33,463 nt of DNA from Betaproteobacteria bacterium (lineage in GTDB: Bacteria > Pseudomonadota > Gammaproteobacteria > Burkholderiales > SG8-41): contig JACPTJ010000058.1 of the NCBI GenBank assembly GCA_016192835.1, forward strand, positions 1 through 33,463, written 5' to 3'. Both the position numbers and the translations under genes were made by a program. Within the stretch, counting starts at the first letter, position 1. Every line of letters begins with the position of its first letter. Below, in pieces: positions 12,913-32,998 of this stretch. The notes beneath the pieces were generated by a model. It did no database searches. It saw nothing but the letters and a program-made list of their open reading frames with translations, and had not been told where the DNA came from.

Positions 12913-14535
12913 GTGCTGCTCGATCTGCTGAAGTCAGTTGCCGGAAAGCTTGCCCGCGGGAGAGCGCCGCACGCCGCTACTTCCATGCCCGCCGCCGCCC
13001 GCAGCGCGGCGGCGGCGGGCAGCACGGGTGACGATGATGCGTCGCTGCGCGCTCAGGCACTGTATGGCGCGGGCGAGATGGACGCAGCGCGGCCGCTTTA
13101 CGAAGAATTATTGCATCGCGACCCGGATAATCTCGACGTTGCGTACCAGCTCGGCGTCATTTATGGCCGGACCAACCACCTGCAGCCCGCCAGCGCCCTG
13201 CTGGAGCGGGTCGTCGCGATGCGACCGGACTCGATCGATGTACTCAATGCGCTGGCCAATGTAGCCTGGTTGCAATGCCGTTGGCGGGACGCTGAGCAGC
13301 TGTTTCGCCATGCGCTCGAGATTCAGCCCGGCACAGTGGCGCTGTGGGCCAATCTCGGCCTGTGCCTGCACGATGCCGGAAAGCTCGATATGGCCGCGCA
13401 GGCGTTGCAACGCGCATTGGAGATCGACCCCGGCCATCTCGATGCGTTGCTGAATTCCGCTATGGTCAATATCGACGTTGGCCAACTCGACACCGGCGTG
13501 GCGATCCTGCAAAAAGCCTTGCAGATCGACCCCCGGTTCGCCGAGGCCCATGCGCTGCTCGCGCAACTGCGGTTGCAGCGCGGCGATTTTGGCGCCGGCT
13601 GGCCCGAATACGAATGGCGATTTCGTTGTGCCGACGCGCAACATCGGCGCGATGATGCTTTGGCGTCGTGGAACGGGAGTGCCGATTTGAAGCGCAATCT
13701 GGTTATTTACGGCGAGCAGGGTCTTGGCGATCAAATCATGTTTACATCGTGTCTGCCCGACGCGATCGCGCGCACCGGGCACTGCATTATGGAATGCGAT
13801 CCGCGGCTGGTGGGACTGTTTGCGCGCTCGTTTCCACAGGCGACTTTTTTACCCTACGATCCCAAGTCCGGGAAAGGCTCGGCCGAAGTGGACGCGAGGC
13901 CCGATTGCCAAACTCATCTCGGCAGCCTGCCGGGATTGTTTCGAAAGCAGTGGGCCGATTTTCCCCGGCACGAAGGTTACCTGAAACCGGACCCGGCGCG
14001 CGTCGCGTACTGGCGCGAGCGGCTTGCCGGTCTGGGTGCGGGCCTGAAAATCGGGATCTCATGGCGTGGCGGCGTGCCGCGGACGCGACACGCGTTAAGG
14101 TCGATCCCGTTGCGCGAATGGCTGCCCTTGCTGGAGTTGAAGGGACATAACTTTGTCAGCCTGCAATACGGCGAATGCCGCGGCGAGATCGCGGAGTTGG
14201 CGTCGCGGCCCGGCATTGAACTGCCCCATTGGCAGGAAGCACTCGATGACTACAGCGAGACCGCTGCACTGGTGGACGCGCTCAATCTGGTGATCAGCGT
14301 GTGCACGTCAGTAGTCCATCTGGCCGGGGCGCTCGGGAAATGCGCATGGGTATTGGTCCCCGTATGCCCGGAATGGCGTTATCTGAGTGCCGGGGATCGC
14401 ATGCCCTGGTATCCGGCGGTGCAGTTGTTCCGGCAGCAGACGCTCGGGGAATGGCAGCCTGTAATTGCCACCGTCCGTGACCGCCTGGCAACGGCAGCCG
14501 CGAGCCAGCCGGACGGAATCGAAATTTCAAGGTAG
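12913..14535 (+). CDS. TPR protein with GT9-like glycosyltransferase domain
   Basis: A 540-residue protein. After an N-terminal amphipathic basic segment ([16 protein letters not shown]) and an Ala-rich linker, TPR repeats run from about 43 to 235, then a GT9-like (ADP-heptosyltransferase-type) domain from about 258 to 535. Motifs are [12 protein letters not shown] (266-277), [21 protein letters not shown] and CPEWRY...MPWYP. The usual Asp of the (D)TxxxHLAGALG motif is replaced by Cys. No signal peptide is seen, so it should be cytoplasmic. GTG start with GAGGG 8 nt upstream. It is closely similar in layout and motifs to the island proteins at 20628, 23814 and 28886, but is separated from them by moaC and sox. 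Donor sugar and acceptor are unknown; a protein acceptor is suggested by the TPR domain. Confidence 0.82.
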
Positions 14536-19457: not shown

Positions 19458-20546
19458 TCAAGGCAGCCGCAGCATCCGAATCGCTTCGTCGTCGACAAAC
19501 CGGGTGATATTGATCTGCCCATGAAACCCGAATGTGGGTCCGGTGGGCTCGATATGCTCAAAGGAGAAGCGCTCAGCAATCGCGTCCGGGGCGAACGCAA
19601 TACCATACTGCTCCTCCAGGTAGCGGCGGTGGGTCAGACAAATCGCCCCGTCTTCCGGATGTGCCGCTACCACGCGGGGATCCTGCAAAGCCTGCAGCAG
19701 GGCCTTTGAGCGCAGCGAGAATCCGCCGTTGCCCACCGTATGATCGGCTGGAATGTTCAACGCCTCATGCGGCCAGCGTGCGCCGATGTAATCGTACAGC
19801 AGGAACTGATCGGACCAGGCGTCAGGATTTACAACATAACCATCCCACTGGACCAGCAGCACGTAATCGGTGTCGATGTACGGCAGCAGACGCTTCATGA
19901 CGAACAGCGCGTAATCGTCCAGCGATTGGATGGGATCAATAATCACTGTTTCTACCGGTCCAACGTCGAACTTGCGGTCCGTGAAAAACATCGCGCGCGG
20001 GAACTCGCATCCGTTCAACGTCAGGTTCAGCGCGCGAATCGCGAGTGCGTGATTGCTGCAATCGACGCAGCACAAGATGGTATTGGGAATCTTCACCCTG
20101 GTCGCCCGCGGTTCGACCATGCTCTGTGCTTCGGGCGCGATAAGCCGTCGCTTGATCAGGGCGGTCACATCGCTAATGCGACCGCATTCGCCCATGATTT
20201 TCCAGATACCCGTGTGTGCCTTGTGACAACCCGGATCGATGCGCAAAACCTGGCGCAACTCCGCAAGTTCCTCCTCATTTTGCTGTAACGCGGTCAGCAC
20301 CTGCTCCCGCGTATTTCTGATCACCGGGCTGTCGGGACGCAGGGCCATCGCGCGGAGCGAAAACTGATCGGCCGCGTCAAGACGTCGCCGTCGCAGCGCA
20401 ATGATCGCGCCCAGACGCAGCAGGTCGGGATGATCAACCGAGATGTCAAGTATGCGGTCGAGCAGCGCAGCCGAAGAGTCAAACTCGCCCGCACGAAGTT
20501 TCTCGAGTACTTGTTGTAACTGCCCCTCGACAAGCCTGACGTCCAT
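19458..20546 (-). CDS. TPR protein with DUF5672-like glycosyltransferase domain
   Basis: A 362-residue protein from the ATG at 20546; a GTG at 20564 would add six residues, and neither start has a strong ribosome-binding site. Residues about 1-130 form TPR-like helices. The C-terminal part matches the DUF5672 pattern: LCCVDCSNHALAIRAL, DTDYVLLVQWDGYVVNP, DYIGARWPH, VGNGGFSLRSKALL and a final GFHGQINITRF. DUF5672 proteins sit in polysaccharide and glycan clusters and look like nucleotide-sugar transferases. The LVQWDG motif takes the place where a DxD would be expected. It is the last gene of the minus-strand island, 81 nt after the TPR-GT9 gene. Confidence 0.72.
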   Translation of the reverse strand: MDVRLVEGQLQQVLEKLRAGEFDSSAALLDRILDISVDHPDLLRLGAIIALRRRRLDAADQFSLRAMALRPDSPVIRNTREQVLTALQQNEEELAELRQVLRIDPGCHKAHTGIWKIMGECGRISDVTALIKRRLIAPEAQSMVEPRATRVKIPNTILCCVDCSNHALAIRALNLTLNGCEFPRAMFFTDRKFDVGPVETVIIDPIQSLDDYALFVMKRLLPYIDTDYVLLVQWDGYVVNPDAWSDQFLLYDYIGARWPHEALNIPADHTVGNGGFSLRSKALLQALQDPRVVAAHPEDGAICLTHRRYLEEQYGIAFAPDAIAERFSFEHIEPTGPTFGFHGQINITRFVDDEAIRMLRLP

Positions 20547-20627
20547 GGCGGAGTTAGCGGACACGGAGTGGGACGATTTGCATAGTCATCGCGGAGACAA
20601 TGCCCCCGCGGGCAAGACGGGGACAAA

Positions 20628-22427
20628 TCATGATTTTAGTCGTGGCCGTAAAATCTCGTGCAGCGCGTCGGCTACCGCTGTAAATGCCTGGGTCCAACCG
20701 CCGTCGCGACGATGGAACAGGCGAACCGTCGGATACCAGGGACTTTCCGTGCCGGCGATCTCCCAGCGCCAATCCGGAATTCCGGGATGCAACAACCAGG
20801 TCGGCCTGCCCATCGCTCCACAGAGGTGGGCAACTGAAGTGTCAACCGAGATCACCAGATCGAGGTTGGCCACGAGCGCTGCCGTATCCGCGAAGTCTTC
20901 GATGCGGGGAGTAAGATCGATCAGCGGCAATGGGAAACGCGCGACATCGTCCGCACTGCCGCCCAGCTGGAGGTTGTAGAACGCCACACCCGGAATCGCG
21001 GCAAGCGCGCAATATTCATCCACCGCCGGGATGCGTCCGTGTTGATGCGTGCGCAACGGATTCCCGCCCCAGGCAAGCCCCACCCGCAATCGGGTGTCGT
21101 CGGCGAGATTCATGCGCCAGGTTTGAATCAGGTTCGGGAGCGCCCTGAGGTAGGGGATCGGCCCGGGCAAGTTGGCGAGCCCTATCCCAAACGCGCGCCC
21201 GAGACTAAGCAGCGGAATTGAAAAATCCGCCGTGACCGTCTCCCCGGCTTCCGCGTCGATCACGCGGTTTAGACCGGAAAAATCCCGCAGCAAGCGGACC
21301 AGTGCCCGGCGACATCGGAAAACGACCGTGGCGCCTGGCTGGTTGATGCGGGAAAGAAATCGCGCGAACATCAGTACGTCGCCATAGCCCTGCTCGGCGT
21401 TTACCAGCAGCGTTTTCCCGTCCAGACGCTCTCCTCCCCATCGCGGTTCCGGCGCGTTGTAGTATCGAGCGAATCTTGGCATCCGGGTACGCCACTCGTA
21501 ACCTTCCCAGCCCGCCGCCAGATTGCCTTGCAGCAGGGCAACATTGGCCAGCCCGAAATGCGCATCTGCACAATCGGCGTCGAGCGCCAGCGCCTCACGA
21601 AAATATTGCCGCGCCTGGGGCATTCTCCCCATCTCGAAGTTCGACTTCCCGAGTCCGCAAATGATTTCGGTGCGGCCGGGGGCCACGCGATGGCAGGTCT
21701 CCAACTGTGCAAGCGCCTGCTCATGCTCGCCAAGCTCGCTTAGCGCAAGCCCGATGTTGATGCTCGCGTGGATGTGGCCCGGATCAAGTGCGAGCGCGGC
21801 GCGAAAGCACGCGAGCGCGGTGTCGTATTGCTTGCGTTCGCTGTACACGCGCCCGAGATTGTTCTGCGCAGTGGCGAAATCGGACTTCAGCTGCAACGCT
21901 TTTTCGAAACATTGTTCCGCCTCGGGCAACCGGCCCGCACCGAGGTGAATCAAACCGAGGTTGTTATGCAGCCCCGCAACGTCGGGAGCGAATTCGAGTG
22001 CCGCCTGATAACACGCCTGGGCACGTGCCGGCTCACGCCACGCCATGTAGAGCTTGGCGAGCTCGATGTGCGCGGCCACCAGATCAGGGCGTAGAGCGAC
22101 TGCGTTTTCGAAATGGCCTGCTGCGGTACGGTCTTCGCCTTTCCTGCGCTCAAGTTGCCCGCGCAGAAATTCAAGATCGGCATCGTTTGGGTAAGCCTGC
22201 GCCAGCCGAGTGATTCTCGGCTCGGCTTCCGCCAGAGCACCGGCATCGATCAGCGCATGAATCTCCAAAATCGCAGCGGCGGGTGTCATAGAGGCGCCGC
22301 CGGAGGCAAACGCTGATCCTGCCGATTCGCCGGCACTGGTTCCCCGAGGTGCCTTCAGAAGCATGGCTTTCGCCAATCGCAGCAAGGAGCGATACCGATC
22401 ATGGTGAGAGCTTTGATTATTAGGCAT
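20628..22427 (-). CDS. TPR protein with GT9-like glycosyltransferase domain, downstream of the pilins
   Basis: A 599-residue protein. An N-terminal basic segment (RYRSLLRLAKAMLLKAPRG) and a Ser/Gly/Ala linker lead to a long TPR array (about 50-320) and a GT9-like domain (about 338-595). Motifs are NAEQGYGDVLMF (343-354), RVGLAWGGNP, SVDTSVAHLCGAMG and IPDWRW. It is the most divergent of the five GT9-like domains: it has GYGD for GLGD and DWRW for EWRY, but keeps the Asp in DTSVAHL. No signal peptide is seen. The ATG at 22427 lacks a good ribosome-binding site; ATG at 22364 is another option. It lies 121 nt behind the second pilin, in which I see no terminator, so it may be transcribed with the pilins. 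The target is unknown; pilin is the obvious candidate. Confidence 0.78.
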   Translation of the reverse strand: MPNNQSSHHDRYRSLLRLAKAMLLKAPRGTSAGESAGSAFASGGASMTPAAAILEIHALIDAGALAEAEPRITRLAQAYPNDADLEFLRGQLERRKGEDRTAAGHFENAVALRPDLVAAHIELAKLYMAWREPARAQACYQAALEFAPDVAGLHNNLGLIHLGAGRLPEAEQCFEKALQLKSDFATAQNNLGRVYSERKQYDTALACFRAALALDPGHIHASINIGLALSELGEHEQALAQLETCHRVAPGRTEIICGLGKSNFEMGRMPQARQYFREALALDADCADAHFGLANVALLQGNLAAGWEGYEWRTRMPRFARYYNAPEPRWGGERLDGKTLLVNAEQGYGDVLMFARFLSRINQPGATVVFRCRRALVRLLRDFSGLNRVIDAEAGETVTADFSIPLLSLGRAFGIGLANLPGPIPYLRALPNLIQTWRMNLADDTRLRVGLAWGGNPLRTHQHGRIPAVDEYCALAAIPGVAFYNLQLGGSADDVARFPLPLIDLTPRIEDFADTAALVANLDLVISVDTSVAHLCGAMGRPTWLLHPGIPDWRWEIAGTESPWYPTVRLFHRRDGGWTQAFTAVADALHEILRPRLKS

Positions 22428-22548: not shown

Positions 22549-22971
22549 TCAGTTCCGGCATTCGGCCGGCACGTACTTGTACTGCGCGGTCGTTCCGCCG
22601 GTACCGCATACCCAGGTTACCCGGCCCGCCGAATTTGACGGCGTCAAGACTATGCTTACCGCCGTCCCCACCGACGTATTCGAGCCAAGGACGGTGATAA
22701 TGCCGCCATCGGTAACCGAGCCGCCGGTAATCTTGCCACTGAAAGGGGTCAACGTCAGGCCCAAACCAGAGCTGGCCAGCGTCATGTCGGAATTGGCTTT
22801 CGCGGCGATCGCACTCTTGAAAGCACTTGCTGCCGCCACCAACTCCGACACCTTGGCCCGGATCGCGTAATCCTGGTATGCGGGGGCCGCCATGGCCACC
22901 AAAATCGCGATGATCGCCACCACGACCATCAATTCAACCATGGAAAAGCCGCGTCGAATCTTATTATAAAT
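22549..22971 (-). CDS. pilA: Type IV pilin, second tandem copy, without a normal start codon
   Basis: The mature protein starts at the prepilin site G|FSMVELMVVVAIIAILVAM, with Glu at position 5, as in type IVa pilins. It ends [19 protein letters not shown]; the two cysteines in this region would form the C-terminal disulfide loop. About two thirds of residues match the neighbouring pilin. No ATG lies upstream in frame. The coordinates given use an ATT at 22971, which yields a normal 8-residue basic leader (xYNKIRRG) and has AGGGG 7 nt upstream. GTG at 22998 or TTG at 23034 would give leaders of 17 or 29 residues without a ribosome-binding site. It may be expressed poorly, or be losing its start. 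Confidence 0.8.
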   Translation of the reverse strand: MYNKIRRGFSMVELMVVVAIIAILVAMAAPAYQDYAIRAKVSELVAAASAFKSAIAAKANSDMTLASSGLGLTLTPFSGKITGGSVTDGGIITVLGSNTSVGTAVSIVLTPSNSAGRVTWVCGTGGTTAQYKYVPAECRN

Positions 22972-23040
22972 GGCCCTGCCCCTGCCTCCCGCGGACACCT
23001 CGGTCGAGGCACCCGGTGTTGAATTAACTCGCAATACGAA

Positions 23041-23472
23041 TCAGTGCCGGCATTCGGCCGGCACGTACTTGAACTGCGCCGCCGTCCCGGCCGTTATCGC
23101 GCCGGCCGTGCATTCCCAGATTAGCCGCCCGGAGTTTATCGACGGCCTCAAGATGATACTTACCGCTGTGCCCACCGACGTATTCGAGCCCGCGACGGTA
23201 ATAGTACCGGTCACGCTCACCGCGCCAGCGGTAATCTTGCCGCTGAAGGGGGTCAGCGTCAGGCCCGAACCAGCGCTGGCTAAAGTGCCGTCCGAGGTGG
23301 CTTTCTCGGCAATCGAGGTCTTGAAGCCGCTCGCGGCCAGCACCAGTTCCGACACCTTTGCGCGGATGGTGTAATCCTGATAGGCGGGCAGCGCGACCGC
23401 TGCCAGAATGCCGATGATCGCCACCACGATCATCAGCTCGATCAGAGTAAAACCTCTTTGGATACGTTTCAT
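23041..23472 (-). CDS. pilA: Type IV pilin (PilA-like), first tandem copy
   Basis: A 143-residue prepilin with leader MKRIQRG, cleaved before [19 protein letters not shown] (Glu5 present). The mature part is rich in Thr, Ser and Gly and ends with a disulfide loop ([21 protein letters not shown]). PilD would cleave and methylate it, and it would polymerize into pili in the cell envelope. The ATG at 23472 is preceded by GGGAG at 8 nt, which rules out the longer frame to 23532. A sigma54 promoter lies about 60 nt upstream. No pil assembly genes are in the window; instead glycosyltransferase genes flank both sides. Confidence 0.93.
23044..23064 (-). repeat. Hairpin at the 3' end of the first pilin gene
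   Basis: GTGCCGGC-ATTCG-GCCGGCAC, a perfect 8-bp inverted repeat that encodes the final PAECRH residues just before the stop. The same site in the second pilin has lost the outer pairs. There is no T-run, so it is more likely an RNA stabilizer or processing site than a terminator. Confidence 0.5.
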
Positions 23473-23540
23473 ATATAAGCTCCCGGTTGACAAAAAAGCT
23501 ATCGTTATATTTCGCGCATTGTTAAAGCGCATTCTGATTA

Positions 23541-23779: not shown

Positions 23780-23817
23780 GTGACGCCAAAGCGTCAGAAA
23801 CTGCCGCGTGGCGTCAC
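23780..23817 (-). repeat. Two competing hairpins at the end of the double TPR-GT gene
   Basis: GTGACGCC (23780-23787) pairs with GGCGTCAC (23810-23817), which contains the stop codon. The first arm can instead fold locally as TGACGC-CAAA-GCGTCA (23781-23796). No T-run follows on the minus strand, so termination is uncertain; 3'-end protection is possible. Confidence 0.4.
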
Positions 23818-26800
23818 AATTTCAGCATCGACACGCGCTGTGCAATGCCCATGATGACCGGAATCCATCCGTCGCGCTGCTGCCGGAAAAGCCGGACGGA
23901 TGGATACCACGGCATCGCGTTCCCGGTTTGCAGATAACGCCACTCGGGTACCGCCGGCACCAGCACCCACGCGGGCTTGCCCAGCGCCCCGCTCAAATGT
24001 GCGACCGCGGTTTGAACCGAAACGACCAGGTCAAGCCCCGCAATCAGCGCGGCTGTTTCGTCGAAATCGTCGATCGCGTGCTGCCAATGATGAACGGAAA
24101 CGCCATGTTCGCGTGTAAACCTGCCGGACTCCTCGCCATTGTCACCGTATTGCAGGCTGACGAAATGGCACGATGCCTGCGAAATCAGCGGCAGCCACTG
24201 CTCCAACGGTATGGAGCGCAACTCGCGGCGTGTGGATACTGCTCCGCCGCGCCAGGATATGCCGATCTTGTGGCCCGCGCCGAGCGTTGCCAGTCGTTCT
24301 CGCCAATATGCGCAGCGCTCCGAATCTGCCCGCAGATAACCGCCATGATGCGGAAAGCGGGATAAATCGCTGCGGAAGTGCAGCGGCAAGCTGCCGATCG
24401 CCACCTGATAATCGATTGCGCCGAGCCCCGAAATCCAACTCGAATCGCGGTTGGCTTGCTCGCCAGCGCGAACTGTTACCGTCGGAAACGACCGGCGAAA
24501 CAGCTTTTCCAATTGCGGCGAGCATTCGACGATGCAACGTCCGGCATGCTGCAGCAAGTCCGGCAAACACGATGCAAACATGATTTGGTCGCCGAGGCCT
24601 TGCTCGGCGTATACCAGGATCGATTTCCCCGCCAGCGGTTCCCCGCGCCATTCCGGAAAACCGAAATCCCTGGCTACGTAGCTGCCGTACGCGCATTTGC
24701 GGGCCTCATAATCAGGCCAGCCCTCGGCAAAGCGCCCCAGCTTGAGCGCGGCAAGCGCGCGGTTAAGCCGCGCTTCATGCAGGTCCGGATGCGCCGCAAG
24801 CAAATCATCGCACAGCGCGAGCTCGGCATCGAGCAGGCCCCGGTGCGCGAGGACCATGCAGTAATTGCATCGTATGTCCGGATCCTGCGGGCGAAGCCGC
24901 AAGGCGGCCTCGATATGCGCGGCGCCGCGCTCAGGCTCGCCGAGATCGATGAACAGCGTGTAGCCGAGGTTGTTGTGCGCATGAGCAAGCTCGGGGGCAA
25001 GCGCGATTGCCTTCTCAAAATATGCCACCGCTTCGCCGTAATCCCGCCGCTGCCGCGCCACGAGCCCGAGTTGATGCAGCGCCTCGGGAAAATCAGGCCT
25101 GAAATGCAGTGCCAACAGGAAACAATCCGCGGCGTCCTCAGGAAGCTTCTGGTTGAGATGAGACAGCCCGAGATAGTAATGAGCTTGCGCATGATCATGT
25201 TTGATCTCGAGTGCTGCATTGAGGTGACGCACAGCGGTATCGAAGTCGCCGGCGACGCAGGCTGCCCGGCCGGCTTCAAACAAGTTCTCAGCTGCGGCCG
25301 AGCCACCGCCTTCATGCTCTCTGGCCGTCGCATCCGATGGTGCCTCCGGCGCGCGGCCGGCGCCGCGAGCAGCCCGGAATCTGGAAAACCAATCCGGCCA
25401 GTTCATGACGCCGCACGGTTCCGGCGCGCGGCCATTTCGAACATCACGCACCTGTGCAAGCTGTCGCATCGCGTCGCCCACCTCGGAAATCACCGATGCC
25501 CATTCGCGCGGCTTCGTCTGGCGGAATAACCGCGCCGACGGATACCACGGCATCGTGACGCCGCTGCGCGGGTAACGCCATTCGGGCGCGCTCGGCAGCA
25601 ATACCCACACCGGGTGCCCGAGCGCGCCGGCCAGGTGCACGGCTGTCGTGTCGACACTGATCACGAGATCGAGCGCGGTAATCGCCGCTGCCAGTTCGTC
25701 AATGTCGGCAAACTCCTCCCCGAAGCTGCGCACCGTGACGCCGTGCTCAACGCGCAGCTGCGCGAGCTCGGTTGCAACGTCCCCGTATTGCAGGCTCACA
25801 AAATCCACGTCCGACTGCGCCAGCAGCGGCAGCCAGCACGGCAGTGCGACCGAACGGGTGAACCGGCGCGAGCGCAACGATCCGCCGCGCCACGCAATGC
25901 CGACGCGCAGCCTGCCATTGGACGCAGCAAGCCGCGCGCGCCAGAACTCAACACGCGCCGCATCGGCGCGCAGATAGCCGCGATGCGCCGGAAACGCCGA
26001 GCGCACCCCCCGGAAATGCAGCGGCAGCGACCCGATCGCGACCTGGAAGTCGGTGGGCGGCAGCGCCTGCAGCCACGCCTTGCTGTCATCCTTGCTTCCG
26101 CCGTGTACCGTCGCCGACGGAAACGAGCGCGCGAACAGCCGCGCCAGGCGAGTGCTGCATTCGATAACCACATGCCCGGCGCGCTGCAACACTTCGGGCA
26201 CGCAGGAAGCAAACATGATCTCGTCGCCGAGGCCCTGCTCGGCGTAGACCAGGATGCGCTTGCCGCTCAGCGGCTCGCCGCGCCAGACACGGAATGGGAA
26301 GCCCCGCTCGGACGTGGCGGTCGCCGCGAAACGGCGCTCGTATTCGGCCCAGCCGGCGGCGTAATCCTCCCGCATCAAAAGCGCACAGCAGCGGTTGAGC
26401 ACGGCGTCGCCAAACTGCGGTTGGCGCGCCAACACGTTATCGTAATGTGCAAGCGCCTCGTCGAGGCGGCCGAGATCGCGCAAGGCGTGCGCAATGCAGG
26501 CCCGCGTCTCCGGTGTGCCGGGCCGCAGCGCAAGCGCACGCTCGAAGCTCGCGAGCGCCTCTTGCGGATAGCCGGTCTCAAGCAGCAGCAAACCGAGGTT
26601 GTGGTGCACCTCGGCGAAGTCCGGCCTGGCGGCGAGCGCTGCCGCGTGGCTTGCGCGCGACTCCGCGTAGCGTCCCAGCTTGTAGAGCACGAACGCAAGC
26701 TGGCCTGTCGCATCCACAAGCCCGGGGTCACGCGTTATCGCCGAGCGATAGCATTCGACCGCCTGCTCAAGCTCGCCGCGTGCCTTGCAGGCATTACCGA

Positions 26801-27224
26801 CCTGGAACCACGCCGCAGCAGACTGCGGCTCGAGCTCGAGCGCGCGGCGGCACGCGCTTTCCGCCTCGGCGTCGCGACCCAGCTGGGCGAGCGCAGTTCC
26901 CAGATCGCGATGGGCGGCGGCACGATGCGGTGCAAAATGTACCGCCAGCTGGAGGCAGTCGGCGGCGTCCTCGAAGCGACCCAGCTCGAGATGCACGAGC
27001 CCCAGCTGGTGGTGCGCCTCGCCGCAATCATGCCTGAGCTCGATCGCACGTGTCAGGGTGCGCTCTGCCTCCTCGTGCTGCGCGCGCTGGCGCTGCGATG
27101 CGCCGAGACGCAGCAGTTCGGCCACGACAGTACCCTCCGCGACCGCCGGGGCAGCACGTTCGGCGACAGCGGGGGCGGCGTTATGCCTCCCGCGCCAGCG
27201 CCTCAGAACAGTGCGGAAATCCAT
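23814..27224 (-). CDS. Double TPR + GT9-like glycosyltransferase (two complete units fused)
   Basis: A 1136-residue protein made of two full copies of the TPR-GT9 architecture. Unit 1: basic N-terminus (MDFRTVLRRWRGRHN), TPR about 35-300, GT domain about 310-590 with YAEQGLGDEIMF (327-338), [22 protein letters not shown] and PEWRY...MPWYPSARLFRQ. A linker (590-645) contains MNWPDWFSRFRAARG at 607, which resembles another protein start. Unit 2: TPR about 645-845, GT about 860-1130 with [12 protein letters not shown] (872-883), [22 protein letters not shown] and PEWRY...MPWYPSVRLFRQ. Unit 1 keeps Asp in the DTTAVHL motif, while unit 2 has Gln. The reading frame is unbroken across the linker. 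It is probably a two-step or two-site transferase with unknown sugars. ATG at 27224, 73 nt after the TylF-like gene. Confidence 0.82.
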   Translation of the reverse strand: MDFRTVLRRWRGRHNAAPAVAERAAPAVAEGTVVAELLRLGASQRQRAQHEEAERTLTRAIELRHDCGEAHHQLGLVHLELGRFEDAADCLQLAVHFAPHRAAAHRDLGTALAQLGRDAEAESACRRALELEPQSAAAWFQVGNACKARGELEQAVECYRSAITRDPGLVDATGQLAFVLYKLGRYAESRASHAAALAARPDFAEVHHNLGLLLLETGYPQEALASFERALALRPGTPETRACIAHALRDLGRLDEALAHYDNVLARQPQFGDAVLNRCCALLMREDYAAGWAEYERRFAATATSERGFPFRVWRGEPLSGKRILVYAEQGLGDEIMFASCVPEVLQRAGHVVIECSTRLARLFARSFPSATVHGGSKDDSKAWLQALPPTDFQVAIGSLPLHFRGVRSAFPAHRGYLRADAARVEFWRARLAASNGRLRVGIAWRGGSLRSRRFTRSVALPCWLPLLAQSDVDFVSLQYGDVATELAQLRVEHGVTVRSFGEEFADIDELAAAITALDLVISVDTTAVHLAGALGHPVWVLLPSAPEWRYPRSGVTMPWYPSARLFRQTKPREWASVISEVGDAMRQLAQVRDVRNGRAPEPCGVMNWPDWFSRFRAARGAGRAPEAPSDATAREHEGGGSAAAENLFEAGRAACVAGDFDTAVRHLNAALEIKHDHAQAHYYLGLSHLNQKLPEDAADCFLLALHFRPDFPEALHQLGLVARQRRDYGEAVAYFEKAIALAPELAHAHNNLGYTLFIDLGEPERGAAHIEAALRLRPQDPDIRCNYCMVLAHRGLLDAELALCDDLLAAHPDLHEARLNRALAALKLGRFAEGWPDYEARKCAYGSYVARDFGFPEWRGEPLAGKSILVYAEQGLGDQIMFASCLPDLLQHAGRCIVECSPQLEKLFRRSFPTVTVRAGEQANRDSSWISGLGAIDYQVAIGSLPLHFRSDLSRFPHHGGYLRADSERCAYWRERLATLGAGHKIGISWRGGAVSTRRELRSIPLEQWLPLISQASCHFVSLQYGDNGEESGRFTREHGVSVHHWQHAIDDFDETAALIAGLDLVVSVQTAVAHLSGALGKPAWVLVPAVPEWRYLQTGNAMPWYPSVRLFRQQRDGWIPVIMGIAQRVSMLKL

Positions 27225-27297
27225 GGCACGATTTTGCCGTATTATCCACGGACCCGTGACGTGCGGCGAGCAGCTCCCGCCTCATGCTCGAGCCCCA

Positions 27298-28077
27298 TCA
27301 CAGCATTTTGACCGCGACCGCACAATCGGATGAAGCAAAACCAATATAGCGATAGCCCTTGCCCGTTTGCGCGACAAACTCCTGAAATGCCCTGAATTCG
27401 TGCTGCTGCCAGGCCGGGTAATTCAGGTATTCGTCGAACAAAATCACGCTGCCGCTCACGATGCGCGGGGTCAACAACTGCAGCACCGTCCTCGCCGAGC
27501 TGTAGATATCGCAATCGACATGAATGAATCTTGCCGGTCCCGGATGATCCTCCAGAAACTGAGGCAGCGTCTGATCGAACCACCCTTTGTGAATCCGGAC
27601 GCCCGGCGCGTCGATGGCGGGCGCCTCCCCCCGCAGCGAAAACCTGCCCTGCTTCTGGAAATAGGTCCAGTCCTGCGGCAGTCCCTCGAAAGAATCGAAC
27701 CCATGCACCTCCTGCCCGGCGCGCTCGGCGATCGCGCGCAATGACGTGCCGTGATATACGCCGAATTCCAGAACCAGGCCTTCGATCGCGCATTCACCGA
27801 GGGCAAACTCCAGCAGGCTGGACCGCCGCACGAGGTTCCGCGCGCCCATCATGTGGTTGATCATGTAATCGGCGGAGCTTGTCGCCGCCATCAGATGCGC
27901 GACCATTTCGTAATCGATGGTCTTGGGATGAGCCAGCGGTTCGCGCAGTAACGACGCGAGCGCAGCCCGCACTTCGGATCGCAACGCCACCTCCCCGCGG
28001 CTGGCGCCCGGTGGCGCCAGCGCCGCGGCATTTCCGTTCATCCTGCGCCAGATGCGCTTGAGCAGCGAGCCCAGCAT
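27298..28077 (-). CDS. TylF/macrocin O-methyltransferase-like SAM methyltransferase
   Basis: A 259-residue protein with the class I SAM fold as in TylF-type sugar O-methyltransferases: LEFGVYHGTSLRAIA (SAM motif I), VHGFDSFEGLPQDW, FIHVDCDIYSSARTVL (metal-binding acidic motif) and ILFDEYLNYPAWQQHEF. Relatives methylate hydroxyls on sugars of glycans or antibiotics. The ATG at 28077 has GGGGAG 6 nt upstream, which favours it over a longer frame to 28206. The N-terminus (MLGSLLKRIWRRMNGNAAALAP) resembles the basic amphipathic starts of the TPR-glycosyltransferases in the island. It could methylate a sugar added by the neighbouring transferases. Confidence 0.82.
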   Translation of the reverse strand: MLGSLLKRIWRRMNGNAAALAPPGASRGEVALRSEVRAALASLLREPLAHPKTIDYEMVAHLMAATSSADYMINHMMGARNLVRRSSLLEFALGECAIEGLVLEFGVYHGTSLRAIAERAGQEVHGFDSFEGLPQDWTYFQKQGRFSLRGEAPAIDAPGVRIHKGWFDQTLPQFLEDHPGPARFIHVDCDIYSSARTVLQLLTPRIVSGSVILFDEYLNYPAWQQHEFRAFQEFVAQTGKGYRYIGFASSDCAVAVKML

Positions 28078-28132
28078 GATACGCTCCCCTCGTGACGCCG
28101 CGCCCGGACCTGCGGGGCCGCCCGCAATGCAA

Positions 28133-28750
28133 TCAACTGTCGCGGCTACCGTGATCTTCGACCACAAGCTTCCACGTGACGCCCGGATGGTCCTTGGCGG
28201 CCTCATCGAAGATGGCCTTCCACCACATCATGGGGCGCACGGTACAGTGCGCGTTTTCGCCATTGGGCAAAGTGGTCAAAGCGGGATAGCACGCAATGTT
28301 GGCAAACACGAAGCGCGTCGCATAGCTGAAAATCTCGGCCACGATCCACCGCACATCCCCCTCCGGGCAATGCTCAAGCACGTCGGTCGAGATCACACCG
28401 TCGAATTTGCCTTCCGGCAGCTTGCAGTAGGGCTCGTAACACGGATCGTAGCAGCACACCTCGTCCACGTCCCAGTAATCAATCACGCTGTCCCAGTTTC
28501 CTTCGCCCGGTATGACGATATTGGTCGGATTGTATTGGTACCCCTTGCCGCAGCCGTAATCGAGCAGGGTCTGGGCACCCGTGCTGGCGATCAGATCTTT
28601 GATGCGTTTGGCGTGCGGGAAAAGACTCTTGCCCGGATAAGTGGCCTCGGGCGCGAGACCGAGCCGCCGCTCGCCTTCCTCATGCAGGCGGCGATAGAGC
28701 TGCGTCAGTTCCAGATAACGCGGGCTTGGGTTGTGCCGGGAGAAACTCAT
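28133..28750 (-). CDS. Class I SAM-dependent methyltransferase
   Basis: A 205-residue protein starting MSFSRHNPSPRYLELTQLYR. Motif I is LLDYGCGKGYQYNP, and the post-motif region has FDGVISTDVLEHCPEGDVRWIV, followed by FVFANIACYPA and a conserved-looking GENAHCTVRPMMWWK. The substrate is not recognisable. The frame is open to 28882, but the extra 44 residues are low in quality, so the ATG at 28750 is preferred despite a weak ribosome-binding site. It lies in the same minus-strand series, 55 nt before the TylF-like gene, suggesting glycan decoration. Confidence 0.78.
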   Translation of the reverse strand: MSFSRHNPSPRYLELTQLYRRLHEEGERRLGLAPEATYPGKSLFPHAKRIKDLIASTGAQTLLDYGCGKGYQYNPTNIVIPGEGNWDSVIDYWDVDEVCCYDPCYEPYCKLPEGKFDGVISTDVLEHCPEGDVRWIVAEIFSYATRFVFANIACYPALTTLPNGENAHCTVRPMMWWKAIFDEAAKDHPGVTWKLVVEDHGSRDS

Positions 28751-28885
28751 GTCAGCCCGGCCGCATTGCGCGGACCATCGTTCGCGCCGCGGCAAATCCG
28801 GGTTATCTTCATCACCGTCATCGTCACATCTTCGCATGAGGGTCGAGCCGCGGCAAGCAATGGCCGCGATACTGAACAACACCGT

Positions 28886-30478
28886 TTACCGGCGCTCGCT
28901 GCGGCCGAGCTCGGCTGTGACGGATGCGATTACGGGCACCCAATCACTGGAACGCGCTTGGCGGAACAACCGCGCCGACGGATACCACGGCATCGTTTCA
29001 CCGCGCCATGCGTAGCGCCACTCGGGCGCATGTGACAGCGGAATCCAGCACCGTTGTCCCAACGCGCCGGCCAGGTGCACGTTGGTGTTGGGAACGCTGA
29101 TAACCAGATCAAGTGCAGCGATCAATGCCGCGAGCTCGTCCGTGTCTTGCAGCGCCTCGGGCCACCAATCAAGCCCGACGCCCAGCCGCTTCGCCGCCGC
29201 CACCTCTTCCGCGCAATCACCGCGCTGCAGGCACACGAACCGGCAGTTGTGCGCTGTGAGCCAGGGCAGGCACTGGGCGAAGGTCAGCGAGCGCAGTTCC
29301 TCGCGCGTTTTGCGCGTGCCCCCGCGCCAGCTCAACCCGACATTGAGCGCGCCGCCATTTCCCGCCAGGCGCGACTTCCAGTCAGCGACGCGAGCGCGAT
29401 CGGCAACGAGATAGCCGCGGTGTGGCGGAAAATCGGCCGCACTGCGGCGCAGAAAGCGCGGCAGGCTGCCGCACGCAACCTGCACGCTCAATTCGGGAAA
29501 TGCGTTCAACCAGACGCGGCTGGCATCGCGCGGCGCGCCGTGCACGTGCGCCGCGGGGAATGAGCGCTGAAACAGCGAAGCGAGCCGCGCATCGCACTCG
29601 ATCACGACGCCGCGCGCCTGCCGCATTACGTCGGGCACGCACGAGGCGAACATGACCTCGTCGCCCAGGCCCTGTTCGCCGTAGATCAGGATGTCGCGCC
29701 CGCCCAGCGCGCCGCCCGCCCAGGGTATGAATGGAAAATGGCGCGCGACGGATTTGCCGGGGCGCTCGTTGCGCGCTTCGTAATCGTCCCAGCCGCGCGC
29801 AAAATCACCCACGCTCAGCCGCGCAACGCCGCGGTTCCATCGATATTCCGCGACGCCGGGATAGGCCTCGATCAACCGGTCGTAGTGCGCGCGCACAGCC
29901 TCGAACCCGCCCTGCTCCTGCAACGCGAGCCCGAGATTGGCCTGCGCCGCTACCGAGTCAGGCTGCAATACGGCCACGCGCTCGAAATACCGCTGCGCGC
30001 TGTCCGGATTCCCCAATTGCGTGAGCTGAATCAGACCGATATTGATGCATGCCGGGACGTCATCCGGCGCAAGCTCGAGCGCGCGCTCGTAAGCCGCCAG
30101 CGCCGAGCGCGTGTTGCCGCCGCGATTGTGAGTCAGACCCAGCTCGACGTACGGCTCCGCACTGCGCGGCGCCGCCCGCGCCGCACGCTCGAGCAAAACC
30201 AGCGCCCCATCGCAATCCCCCGCCTCGCGGCGCAGCCGGGCGAAGCCGAGCAGCGCCGGCAGGTGATCCGGCGAGAATGCGAGCGCCAGCTCGAAACAAT
30301 CGGCAGCATCCTCGAGATGGCCGAGTTCACTGTGTATTTGAGCCTGGCCGACGAGCGCCTCGACGTCATCGTGTCTCGCCGCCACGGCACGCTTGAAGCT
30401 TGCGAGCGCCTCCTCGCTGCGCCCGGCGCGCGCGAGCGCCAGGCCGCGTTCGAGCCAGTTTACGGGTGCTTCAAACAC
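28886..30478 (-). CDS. TPR protein with GT9-like glycosyltransferase domain
   Basis: A 530-residue protein. TPR repeats occupy about 5-240 and the GT9-like domain about 261-525. Motifs are [12 protein letters not shown] (266-277), [32 protein letters not shown] and PEWRYAWRGETMPWYPSARLFRQ. In the nucleotide-sugar motif the usual DT is PN, so its donor use may differ. The start is inferred: a GTG at 30478 overlaps the stop of the upstream glycosyltransferase by 8 nt and puts the first TPR helix (WLERGLALARAGRSEEAL) at the N-terminus. The frame continues upstream to 30625, but that part reads as non-coding overlap. Unlike its relatives it lacks a basic N-terminal segment with this start. Confidence 0.8.
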   Translation of the reverse strand: MFEAPVNWLERGLALARAGRSEEALASFKRAVAARHDDVEALVGQAQIHSELGHLEDAADCFELALAFSPDHLPALLGFARLRREAGDCDGALVLLERAARAAPRSAEPYVELGLTHNRGGNTRSALAAYERALELAPDDVPACINIGLIQLTQLGNPDSAQRYFERVAVLQPDSVAAQANLGLALQEQGGFEAVRAHYDRLIEAYPGVAEYRWNRGVARLSVGDFARGWDDYEARNERPGKSVARHFPFIPWAGGALGGRDILIYGEQGLGDEVMFASCVPDVMRQARGVVIECDARLASLFQRSFPAAHVHGAPRDASRVWLNAFPELSVQVACGSLPRFLRRSAADFPPHRGYLVADRARVADWKSRLAGNGGALNVGLSWRGGTRKTREELRSLTFAQCLPWLTAHNCRFVCLQRGDCAEEVAAAKRLGVGLDWWPEALQDTDELAALIAALDLVISVPNTNVHLAGALGQRCWIPLSHAPEWRYAWRGETMPWYPSARLFRQARSSDWVPVIASVTAELGRSERR

Positions 30479-31157
30479 GGCCGTTGCGCTGGTCCACGCG
30501 CAACATGGCCTGCCGCTCGCGGCGCCATTCCTCCGCATACTCGCAGTCGCGGTATTCGTCGAAGTACGGCCCGCCGAGTGTGTAATGAACCAGCGACACC
30601 CCTTTGCGCGGGGGGTTGTAGCCAACCAGGTGGTTCCAGTGCTCCGGCAGCGCGCCGATCAGGCCATCATCGCCCAGCCACTTGAATTGATGCAGATCGA
30701 GTCCCGATGCGGCATTCACATACTCCGGCGTCAGCGCGCGGCAACGCGCGTTGTTGAACAGCATGACACTCGACCAGTTTTTCTTCTGATAGGGCGTTTG
30801 CGGCTGATCGAGAAATTTCCGGCTTTCCTTCGGCACGTGATCGTGCTTGACCACCATCACCGCGTAGCGCCCGTCGCACAGCGCATGAAGCCTGGCGATA
30901 TCGTCAAGCATCAGCATGTCACAATCCATGAATACCGACCAGCCCCGGTACTCCGACAGGTATGGTGTCAGAAAGCGTGAAAAAGAAAAATCCGTCGACT
31001 GCAAGGGGTGACGCTCGCGGGTCAGGACCCCCTTGAGTTCAGACAGCATCAGCGGGGCGATGCTGACCGGCTGTGACGAGCGAGCGTGGATGCTGTAGGC
31101 GAGCACGCTGAAGGCCGCGGCTTCCCGCGGGTCGTAACCAATAAACACTTCTATCAT
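30471..31157 (-). CDS. DxD-type glycosyltransferase
   Basis: A 228-residue protein starting MIEVFIGYDPREAAAFSVLA. It has a GT-A fold pattern with the metal-binding DxD in WSVFMDCDMLML (about residue 78), then KNWSSVMLFNNARC and KWLGDDGLIGALPEHWNHLVG, as in GT8-like and capsule-type transferases. It should use a nucleotide sugar with a divalent metal in the cytoplasm. The ATG at 31157 overlaps the OGT-like gene's stop by 4 nt (ATGA), which sets the start, and its own end overlaps the next TPR-GT gene by 8 nt. The three are probably translated together. Confidence 0.8.
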   Translation of the reverse strand: MIEVFIGYDPREAAAFSVLAYSIHARSSQPVSIAPLMLSELKGVLTRERHPLQSTDFSFSRFLTPYLSEYRGWSVFMDCDMLMLDDIARLHALCDGRYAVMVVKHDHVPKESRKFLDQPQTPYQKKNWSSVMLFNNARCRALTPEYVNAASGLDLHQFKWLGDDGLIGALPEHWNHLVGYNPPRKGVSLVHYTLGGPYFDEYRDCEYAEEWRRERQAMLRVDQRNGRV

Positions 31158-32998
31158 GTCGCCGGTACTTTCTCTGTCGATGCTCTGGGAGCGCACCAGC
31201 CGGTCCAGATTTGCCGGAAGCGTGCCTCGAGATGGCGGGTAAAACGTTCCGCGTCGGTGAGCGGGGAATTCAGCATGCGGTCACGCAGACCGCCGCGCAA
31301 TGCCCTCAAACTTCCAGGATCGCCGGCGAGTCGTGTCGCGATATTCACGTAGTCGTCCACTGAATTCGCAATCATACCCTTCAACCCGAGGTTCGTGAGC
31401 ATGCTCACGCCAACTCGCGACACATGGCTTTGCCCGGCGAGCGTCACCACGGGCAGGCCCATCCACAGGGAATGGCAGGTGGTGGTCGTGCCGCTGAAAG
31501 GGAACGGGTCGAGCGCAATATCGGCCTGGTGGTGCAACGCCAGAAATTCGCGTAACGGCAATCTGCCGTGCAACTCGAGGCGCGCGGAATCAACGCCGTA
31601 CGCGGCAAACATCCCGCACACCCGCTCACGTGTCTGCCCGGCAGGCAACGTGGCCAGCAGCAGCCTCGCGCCGGGTACCGCCAACAGGATTCTGGACCAG
31701 GCTTGCACAACCTGCGGCGTGAGCTTGGACAACGCGTTGAACGAGCCGAAAGTCAGCCGGCCGGATTGCGCCGCCGGCAGATCGTTGACGGCGGGGCTGT
31801 CGGGGGGCGGACGGAATACCATGTAGATGTCGGGCATTCGGATCAGCTGCTCGGTGTGCAGGTGTTCGGTCATCCCCGGCGGGTCCGCGAACGCATCAGT
31901 GATGCGGTAGTCCATCGCCGACATGCCGGTCGTGTTCGCGTAACCGTTCCAGGTTATCTGGATGGGCGCCGGTTTGCGCGCGAACACCAGCAGCCGGTTT
32001 CTTTCCGTGTGCCCGGTCAAGTCCACCAGGATGTCTATCCTGTCCCCGAGTATCTGTTCTGCCAGTTCTTCGTCGGTCAAATGCGCGCACTCGCGCCATT
32101 CGCCGCTGCATTGCCTCAATCGTGCGGTGTATTCGTCCGCCTGAAGCACATCGGAGTAACAAAAAATCTGAAACTGCCGCGCATCGTGGCATGCCAGCAC
32201 CGGCTCGAAAAAATAAGCGGCGGCGTGATTCCTGAAGTTCGGTGATACATAGCCGACGCGCAGCCGGCGGCCGGGCACGGCCTCGTTGGCGTGATGCGGA
32301 ATGAACCGCCGCAGGGGCTCGGCGTGGCTGCGCGCCCAGGCGAGATGCTCCTCAAAGACGCGTTGCGGTTCATAGCCCGAATCGAAATTGAGCGCGTAAA
32401 CGTAATTGCTGTGCGCCGTGACGAACGACGGCCGCAGCATGAACGCGCGGCGGTAGCATTCGATGGCCTCCGCGAGCCTGCCCTCAAGATGCAGCAGGTT
32501 CCCCAGATTGTAGACGGCCTCAGCGGAATCCGGCCGCAACCCGAGTGACCTGCGATACGAGAGTTCCGCTTCATCCAGCCTGCCAGCGGCTGTCAGCACG
32601 TTCCCCAGGCTGCTCAGGGCTTCGGCAAAATCGGGCCTCAGGTCGAGAGCTTTTTCGAAGCACCGGGCAGCGCGCTCGTATTGCCCGATGGCATTCAGCG
32701 CTCCACCCAGGTTGTAGCACGCCTCGGCCGATTCCGGCTGCAGCGCAGTCACGCGTTCGAGCAGCGCCACCGCCTCGTGATGCCTGCGTTGCAGCATCAA
32801 ATTGCTCGCGAGCAGATGCATCACATCGGCATGCGGTGGAACCGCTCCCAGCAGCTCCCGGTAGATGGTTTCAGCCTCGGCCAGGCGCCCGCTTTGTTGA
32901 TGCCCGAGCGCGGCGCGCAGCCGCTCATCCAGCGGCATTGCCTCGCGCGCAGCTTCGCGACTGGGCCTGAACAGTTGTCCGAGCAGGTTTTTCAGCAC
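31154..32998 (-). CDS. TPR-containing O-GlcNAc transferase-like (GT41/SPINDLY family) protein glycosyltransferase
   Basis: A 614-residue protein with TPR repeats (about 25-205) and a GT41 catalytic region (about 245-600). Visible OGT-type motifs are LRVGYVSPNFRNHAA (246-260), ITWNGYANTTGMSAMDYRI, FGSFNALSKLTPQVVQAW with K425 at the position of the UDP-binding lysine, and DPFPFSGTTTTCHSLWMGLP (497-516). GT41 enzymes add a single sugar to Ser/Thr of proteins (OGT, SPINDLY) or to Asn (HMW1C), so this is the best evidence that the island acts on protein. GTG start at 32998, overlapping the upstream gene by 7 nt. The N-terminus (LLGQLFRPSREAARE) shares the basic amphipathic look of other island proteins. 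Confidence 0.9.
   Translation of the reverse strand: MLKNLLGQLFRPSREAAREAMPLDERLRAALGHQQSGRLAEAETIYRELLGAVPPHADVMHLLASNLMLQRRHHEAVALLERVTALQPESAEACYNLGGALNAIGQYERAARCFEKALDLRPDFAEALSSLGNVLTAAGRLDEAELSYRRSLGLRPDSAEAVYNLGNLLHLEGRLAEAIECYRRAFMLRPSFVTAHSNYVYALNFDSGYEPQRVFEEHLAWARSHAEPLRRFIPHHANEAVPGRRLRVGYVSPNFRNHAAAYFFEPVLACHDARQFQIFCYSDVLQADEYTARLRQCSGEWRECAHLTDEELAEQILGDRIDILVDLTGHTERNRLLVFARKPAPIQITWNGYANTTGMSAMDYRITDAFADPPGMTEHLHTEQLIRMPDIYMVFRPPPDSPAVNDLPAAQSGRLTFGSFNALSKLTPQVVQAWSRILLAVPGARLLLATLPAGQTRERVCGMFAAYGVDSARLELHGRLPLREFLALHHQADIALDPFPFSGTTTTCHSLWMGLPVVTLAGQSHVSRVGVSMLTNLGLKGMIANSVDDYVNIATRLAGDPGSLRALRGGLRDRMLNSPLTDAERFTRHLEARFRQIWTGWCAPRASTEKVPAT

Follow-up and report, generated by a model that had tools for sequence, protein, structure and literature searches.

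The DNA analysed here is a stretch of 33,463 nucleotides from a Betaproteobacteria bacterium (contig JACPTJ010000058.1 of assembly GCA_016192835.1), referred to below as the window. It contains an open reading frame (ORF) at positions 23814-27224 that encodes two glycosyltransferase units in one polypeptide. As for all features of the window given below, this ORF lies on the minus strand unless stated otherwise. The ORF begins with ATG and encodes a protein of 1136 amino acids; its 1136 codons are open, without an internal stop. Each of the two units consists of tetratricopeptide repeats (TPRs) followed by a GT9-like glycosyltransferase (GT) domain of the GT-B type. Unit 1 comprises residues 1-606 (25407-27224), unit 2 residues 607-1136 together with the stop codon (23814-25406). 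The initial annotation of the sequence had described one unbroken frame with two complete units of this kind, and the ORF, the domain profile and the fold models all bear this out. It had also located the junction at a start-like motif at residue 607. The motif MNWPDWF indeed begins there, M607 (25404-25406) being the former start codon of unit 2, and this stretch, MNWPDWFS, aligns with the similar N-termini of unit 2 orthologues (MSIGDWFG, MNIRTWLG and MSIRDWFS).

Both units contain TPRs according to Pfam, and a GT domain profile built from the family scores 441 bits in each half. In unit 1, the TPR superhelix, as delimited by Pfam and the AlphaFold2 model, covers about residues 27-303 (26316-27146), and the GT domain, as delimited by the family-built profile, residues 310-595 (25440-26297). 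By the same means, the superhelix of unit 2 was placed at about residues 639-843 (24696-25310) and its GT domain at residues 855-1136 (23817-24662). Structure prediction, run separately for each unit, gave confident models, with a mean predicted local distance difference test score (pLDDT) of 88.7 for unit 1 and 87.7 for unit 2. The pLDDT is low at a few stretches, including residues 600-606 of unit 1 and residues 1-3 and 8-32 of unit 2. The junction itself, made up of the tail of unit 1 and the N-terminus of unit 2 (residues 596-638; 25311-25439), thus comprises about 43 mostly low-confidence residues, which are likely to form a flexible linker.

When the two halves are aligned, as had been suggested, 224 of 513 residues are identical (44%; BLASTP, E 4e-135), which is far above chance, and the DNA is 65% identical over 786 columns (blastn, E 1.6e-24). 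The similar DNA that had been noticed around 24590-24620 and 26215-26250 is real: positions 24522-24650 and 26157-26285, which cover the catalytic GLGD loop, are 75% identical. The same loop DNA also resembles that of a neighbouring paralogue, GT9c, at 29594-29722 (65%). Because it is common to this paralogue as well, the similarity is a mark of the family and not of a recent copy.

The origin of the fusion can be read from relatives that encode the units separately. Genomes of the same family contain the same island, but with the orthologues of unit 1 and unit 2 as separate genes, and none of the 12 loci holding both (L028-L037, L039, L040) has the two fused together. Eight of these loci (L030-L037) have the two genes side by side; in L028 and L029 a single additional paralogue lies between them, and L039 and L040 have other genes or a gap at this place. 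Four of the eight adjacent pairs show an ATGA in which the start codon of unit 2 overlaps the unit 1 stop codon, and at L034 a TGA separates the units within a shared frame. A branch with 100/99 support in a 35-domain tree separates the 13 unit 1 rows from the 14 unit 2 rows, GT9c grouping with unit 1 and another paralogue, GT9a, with unit 2; a wider tree of 195 domains agrees. Sisterhood of the window's halves is rejected by the approximately unbiased (AU) test (p 1.6e-5), at a cost of 65 log-likelihood units. By their sequences, then, the halves are old paralogues: the duplication predates the split of the family, and since the halves group with separate orthologues and all 12 loci are unfused, the merger of the neighbours is placed late and in a single lineage. 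The initial annotation had proposed a duplication and fusion. The fusion of two complete units stands, but not as part of a single history, the duplication being much older and having given rise to separate neighbours. It had also named homologues always encoded as two genes as a reason to abandon a fusion; for the junction between unit 1 and unit 2 they are so encoded at 12 of 12 loci, but this dates the fusion rather than refuting it. Either a lost stop codon or a small indel may have let the end of unit 1 run on into the unit 2 frame in this lineage. From a conserved Trp of unit 1 there are 31 residues to M607 in the window, compared to 16-26 residues to the stop in 12 relatives, and this longer tail would fit stop loss somewhat better than a frameshift past the ATGA overlap.

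With regard to the active sites, unit 1 contains D334 in the motif GLGDEIMF (26223-26225) and unit 2 contains D879 in GLGDQIMF (24588-24590). Both are the presumed catalytic Asp of their unit, a role that we assume by analogy with WaaC. The D334 position is invariant in 13 of 13 rows of the unit 1 alignment (A1). Within the family it is Asp in 194 of 195 domains, the remaining one having a gap, and both halves of the fusion keep it. At a second position, presumably involved in donor binding as in WaaC, unit 1 has D525 in DTTAVHL (25650-25652), whereas its counterpart in unit 2 is Q1071 in QTAVAHL (24012-24014). A heptosyltransferase-like protein encoded in the same genome has the motif NDSGLMH, whose Asp aligns with D525, and the position of the C-terminal D-[ST]-G motif matches that of a heptosyltransferase in an hhalign comparison of alignment A3 with the L124 protein (IVSNDSGLMHIAAALG; 35 columns, probability 63, E 6.9e-5). 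The contrast between DTTAVHL and QTAVAHL, from which different donors or a modified second site had been suggested, is real but not peculiar to this protein, as it follows the paralogue clades: in the 195-domain set, all 11 members of the unit 1 clade have D here and all 17 of the unit 2 clade have Q. Across all 195 domains, the position is occupied by C (69), D (43), A (34), Q (27), G (9), T (5), P (4) or S (4), and among the 14 unit 2 rows of alignment A2 by Q in ten and C in four. Because the contrast is clade-wide, it tells nothing special about the fused protein. As a specific sign of a dead or altered second site it was rejected, being clade-wide at a position that varies across the 195 domains.

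Classification of the units relies on several partial similarities. Against Glyco_transf_9 (PF01075), unit 1 scores 22.1 bits with a cut-off of 22, unit 2 scores 20.2 bits, which is below it, and the whole fusion scores 38 bits. The best stretch corresponds to profile positions 173-208, leaving most of the domain unmatched. Because the match spans only 36 of 247 positions, the units are called GT9-like rather than GT9, the latter label being a weak one. The NCBIfam equivalog matches that were inspected for both units are to TPR families and heptosyltransferase I, all below their cut-offs. Among known structures, the best Foldseek chains for unit 2 are SPINDLY and OGT (SPINDLY: E 6.4e-14, query TM-score (TMq) 0.48), protein glycosyltransferases of GT41 that likewise have a TPR superhelix followed by a GT-B part. 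The whole-chain superposition is loose, however (7y4i_B: Z 20.5, root mean square deviation 10.3, 416 residues aligned), and Glyco_transf_41 is absent from the 21 Pfam families matching the fusion at E <= 0.001, whereas a genuine GT41 gene lies nearby at 31154-32998. The match of the model to SPINDLY and OGT therefore shows a common layout, not GT41 membership. A profile search of the PDB with the GT domains alone returned three chance-level matches (best E 0.032), and a search with the whole of unit 1 was swamped by TPR proteins. WaaC and TibC are missing from the VIA-align lists, but TPR rows fill those lists and their absence excludes nothing. The units do resemble the heptosyltransferases WaaC/WaaF and TibC in the short C-terminal motif and the presumed catalytic Asp, although the autotransporter heptosyltransferases of the TibC family have a β-barrel where the units have a TPR domain (PMC4358343).

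The fused gene is found beside pilin genes. A type IV pilin (Pfam Pilin and N_methyl; 23041-23532) is encoded 281 bp downstream of it, followed by a second one (22549-23034), and these two are the sole PF00114 matches in the genome assembly. Over 300 nt the tandem pilin genes (22549-23532) share 74% identity, and over another 57 nt 86%. In relatives, a pilin gene is present on the same strand within about 2.1 kb of the cluster at 12 of 20 loci; where at least 1 kb of sequence is available downstream, 11 of 12 loci have one. Since the loci were picked for their TPR-GT genes and PF00114 genes are few per genome (0-7 matches in each of the genus genomes), chance cannot explain this link. Among 73 named loci, a pilin was found in 31 and a flagellin in eight; the queries for this count were the window pilin and the L109 flagellin, so that L109 matches itself, and family loci L028-L047 include the contigs of several of the 73. 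The flagellin genes near TPR-GT relatives belong to other bacteria (L079, L083, L087, L104, L109, L110, L114, L117) and parallel the pilin link.

Upstream of the fusion, the island continues with a TylF/Methyltransf_24 methyltransferase (27298-28206), whose true start may be internal as its relatives align from residue 44, a methyltransferase-like ORF (28136-28882; Methyltransf_23 at 20.1 bits, below the cut-off of 27), the separate TPR-GT paralogue GT9c (28886-30625) and the OGT-like protein with TPRs and Glyco_transf_41 mentioned above (31154-32998). Beyond the pilins lie a further TPR-GT paralogue, GT9b (20628-22427), and a DUF5672 protein (19458-20564). The paralogue GT9a is encoded on the plus strand at 12913-14535; its orthologue comes after unit 2 in the clusters of relatives. 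Where the window has its methyltransferases, the gap between GT9c and unit 1 in relatives holds a protein whose N-terminal part is weakly GT2-like (L028 and L033, with similar ORFs in L032, L034 and L036); in L028:10097-11725 and L033:10929-12248 this protein also includes an FkbM methyltransferase part. At L043:8351-9142, an ORF of 263 amino acids has its best GT41 stretch at the C-terminal end of the profile (439-532 of 543) and appears to be a remnant. Wzy_C proteins, a family that includes O-oligosaccharyltransferases, are encoded in 13 of 15 genus genomes, including the genome of the window, though neither of its two matches falls within the window. In three of these genomes another pilin is found on the same contig, 8-11 kb from a Wzy_C protein (G041:C276, G043:C81, G038:C298); these are perhaps separate pilin loci of the oligosaccharyltransferase type.

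Fusions of TPR-GT units are not restricted to the window. Among 226 ORFs with a domain match, there are 17 distinct multi-unit ORFs, the one in the window included (18 are listed, but L053 repeats L040). The closest parallel is found in G053 (JACPEF010000167.1; L040, identical to L053), where unit 2 is fused to GT9a in a protein of 1149 amino acids encoded upstream of a pilin. As in the window, adjacent island genes have merged, but the fusion is at the next junction along and in another genus of the family, and is thus an independent event. Proteins with two or three TPR-GT units per frame also occur in Azospirillum and relatives (L108, L112, L119, L121, L122, L123). They belong to other domain clades and have separate origins. 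Because these two- and three-unit proteins are orthologous across species of Azospirillum and Roseomonas, such fusions can persist. Where annotated, they are named only 'tetratricopeptide repeat protein', the Azospirillum records H1 and H5 being without annotation, and neither pilin nor flagellin was found in the fetched stretches of L108, L112, L119 and L121 (by blast) or of L122 and L123 (by a motif scan alone). In L122 and L123, as well as in L112, L119 and L121, a two-unit gene faces a three-unit gene on the opposite strand. Other cases have two (L102), three (L082) or four units (L109). The last of these is an ORF of 2484 amino acids beside a flagellin gene (L109:1792-9246); its units 2 and 3 have equal domain scores and are followed by near-identical linkers, which may point to a very recent internal duplication or to an assembly repeat. 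Two more multi-unit ORFs, with two and four units, occur in the same genus and family (G045, G057), in a sample chosen for long open frames or remaining contigs, so that two of 28 ORFs is no rate. The fusion in the window is of a recurring kind.

Taken together, we favour, with moderate confidence, a reading in which the ORF is a lineage-specific merger of two neighbouring, old TPR + GT-B genes within a glycosylation island linked to type IV pilin, and encodes an enzyme with two sites. The best comparison is FlmG, the flagellin O-glycosyltransferase of Caulobacter. Its TPR part (residues 1-313) is reported to bind flagellin and its GT-B part (309-596) to be needed for flagellin modification (PMC7591256). 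In domain layout, FlmG is like unit 1 with its GT domain at 310-595: both have about 600 residues, an N-terminal TPR part and a C-terminal GT-B part. Moreover, its gene, like that in the window, is a TPR-GT gene beside the gene of a filament subunit. As described there, FlmG differs in being a single unit that acts on flagellin with pseudaminic acid, whereas the window has two units and a pilin neighbour. By analogy, the product of the fused gene would be one polypeptide in which a flexible linker of about 40 residues connects two transferases that fold independently; each TPR superhelix would grip a protein acceptor and each GT-B domain would transfer a sugar. The pilin encoded downstream is, from its position, the candidate substrate, and the two units would either modify it or assemble its glycan, each site performing one step. 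The D-type and Q-type sites would probably add different sugars to it or act at different steps, and the fusion would couple both steps and fix their ratio.

A number of observations weigh against this reading. The window's halves show 53.4% identity over the GT domain, which makes them the most alike of 11 pairs of unit 1 and unit 2, compared to 41.5-50.2% for the pairs of 10 relatives, and which is close to the 48.6-60.6% shared by the halves with their own orthologues. No clear conversion tract between the halves was found in a sliding comparison of 18 short stretches, but three of these (columns 0-30, 75-105 and 90-120) lie at least 6 points above the mean identity to the own orthologues on both sides. 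In the 17 residues before M607, the GC content at third codon positions (GC3) is 0.59, compared to 0.79 in unit 1. The second contig that carries the junction, MIAC01000177.1 (L048), is from another bin, a metagenome-assembled genome of Rhodospirillales, and all of its 4871 bp match window positions 24351-29221 at 99.08% identity (45 mismatches, no gap), with an unbroken frame through the junction. Its mismatches are uneven, however: the 1997 bp upstream contain 44 of them, whereas the 2874 bp that the contig covers of the fused gene contain a single, synonymous one (Fisher p 1.9e-16). This pattern points to recombination or a sweep in this block, or to a mixed consensus, and because of this near-identical block within the fused gene the independence of L048 is incomplete. 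Furthermore, L029 has 3.5 kb of downstream sequence without a pilin. Lastly, pilin glycosylation, where these sources describe it, uses a periplasmic oligosaccharyltransferase (PMC7591256, PMC8498110), and pilin is secreted whereas the fused GTs look cytoplasmic.

Several other explanations were considered. A recent internal duplication of one unit might be suspected from the 44% protein identity, the similar DNA stretches and the fact that no other of the 11 pairs is as similar, but the AU test and the clade placement reject it and leave it next to no probability. An assembly or sequencing error, in which case the organism itself would have two separate genes, has to be considered for a metagenome-type assembly (586 contigs, 85.84% complete, 5.65% contaminated) in which related sequences invite chimeras, the more so as the units are separate at all 12 relatives' loci and the identical block of L048 is odd. 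Yet the contig from the other bin has the same junction without a gap, and there are further fusions, in G053 at the adjacent junction and in other relatives. L048 gives strong but not complete support for a real junction; the fusion is probably real, and misassembly is unlikely given this second contig, to the point that we consider an error quite improbable. Equally little probability is assigned to one half being a dead passenger that serves only as a second TPR docking platform. The change from D to Q at the presumed donor-binding position of unit 2 speaks for it, but Q is fixed in all 17 members of its clade, fewer than a quarter of all domains have D (43 of 195), and unit 2 retains the catalytic Asp, His, Arg and Trp of the motifs.

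Two other explanations concern what the fused gene makes and for what purpose. Two proteins could still be produced from the fused frame if unit 2 is also started at M607, which would make the fusion largely incidental. The start is intact, aligns with the starts of unit 2 orthologues and retains the ATGA context of four of the eight adjacent pairs. On the other hand, ATG followed by A is common by chance, a clear Shine–Dalgarno sequence was not seen by eye just upstream of M607, and ribosomes translating unit 1 would mask an internal start, so we rate this as rather unlikely. Alternatively, the product of the island could be a polysaccharide, either lipid-linked or at the surface, or else a glycan used by an oligosaccharyltransferase, with pilin as a later acceptor or a mere neighbour. 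GT9 proper is a family of lipopolysaccharide heptosyltransferases, and Wzy_C proteins are encoded in most genomes of the genus and 8-11 kb from another pilin in three of them. The window contains neither of its genome's Wzy_C matches, though, TPR domains attached to GTs point to protein acceptors, and the tight link to pilin or flagellin recurs across lineages; this explanation has a real but minor chance of being correct.

Beyond the two-site pilin enzyme favoured here, a wider and more speculative proposal, to which we give a low probability, can be formulated. The pilin-linked class of TPR-GT proteins could glycosylate type IV prepilin stepwise in the cytoplasm, in the manner of FlmG and without an oligosaccharyltransferase, with GT9c, unit 1, unit 2 and GT9a acting as an ordered series; repeated fusions, that in the window among them, would then be assembly-line enzymes. 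A literature search, for which most subscription papers were beyond reach, found no paper describing pilin-linked TPR-GT enzymes or multi-unit fusions.

In many Betaproteobacteria, enzymes of the TPR-GT family are encoded next to pilin genes, and in some other bacteria next to flagellin genes. The pilin-linked family is a more interesting lead than the fusion alone, which is one of several. If the linked subunit is the substrate, there would be an FlmG-like route of pilin glycosylation besides the oligosaccharyltransferase route, and the naturally fused pairs would reveal consecutive transfer steps.

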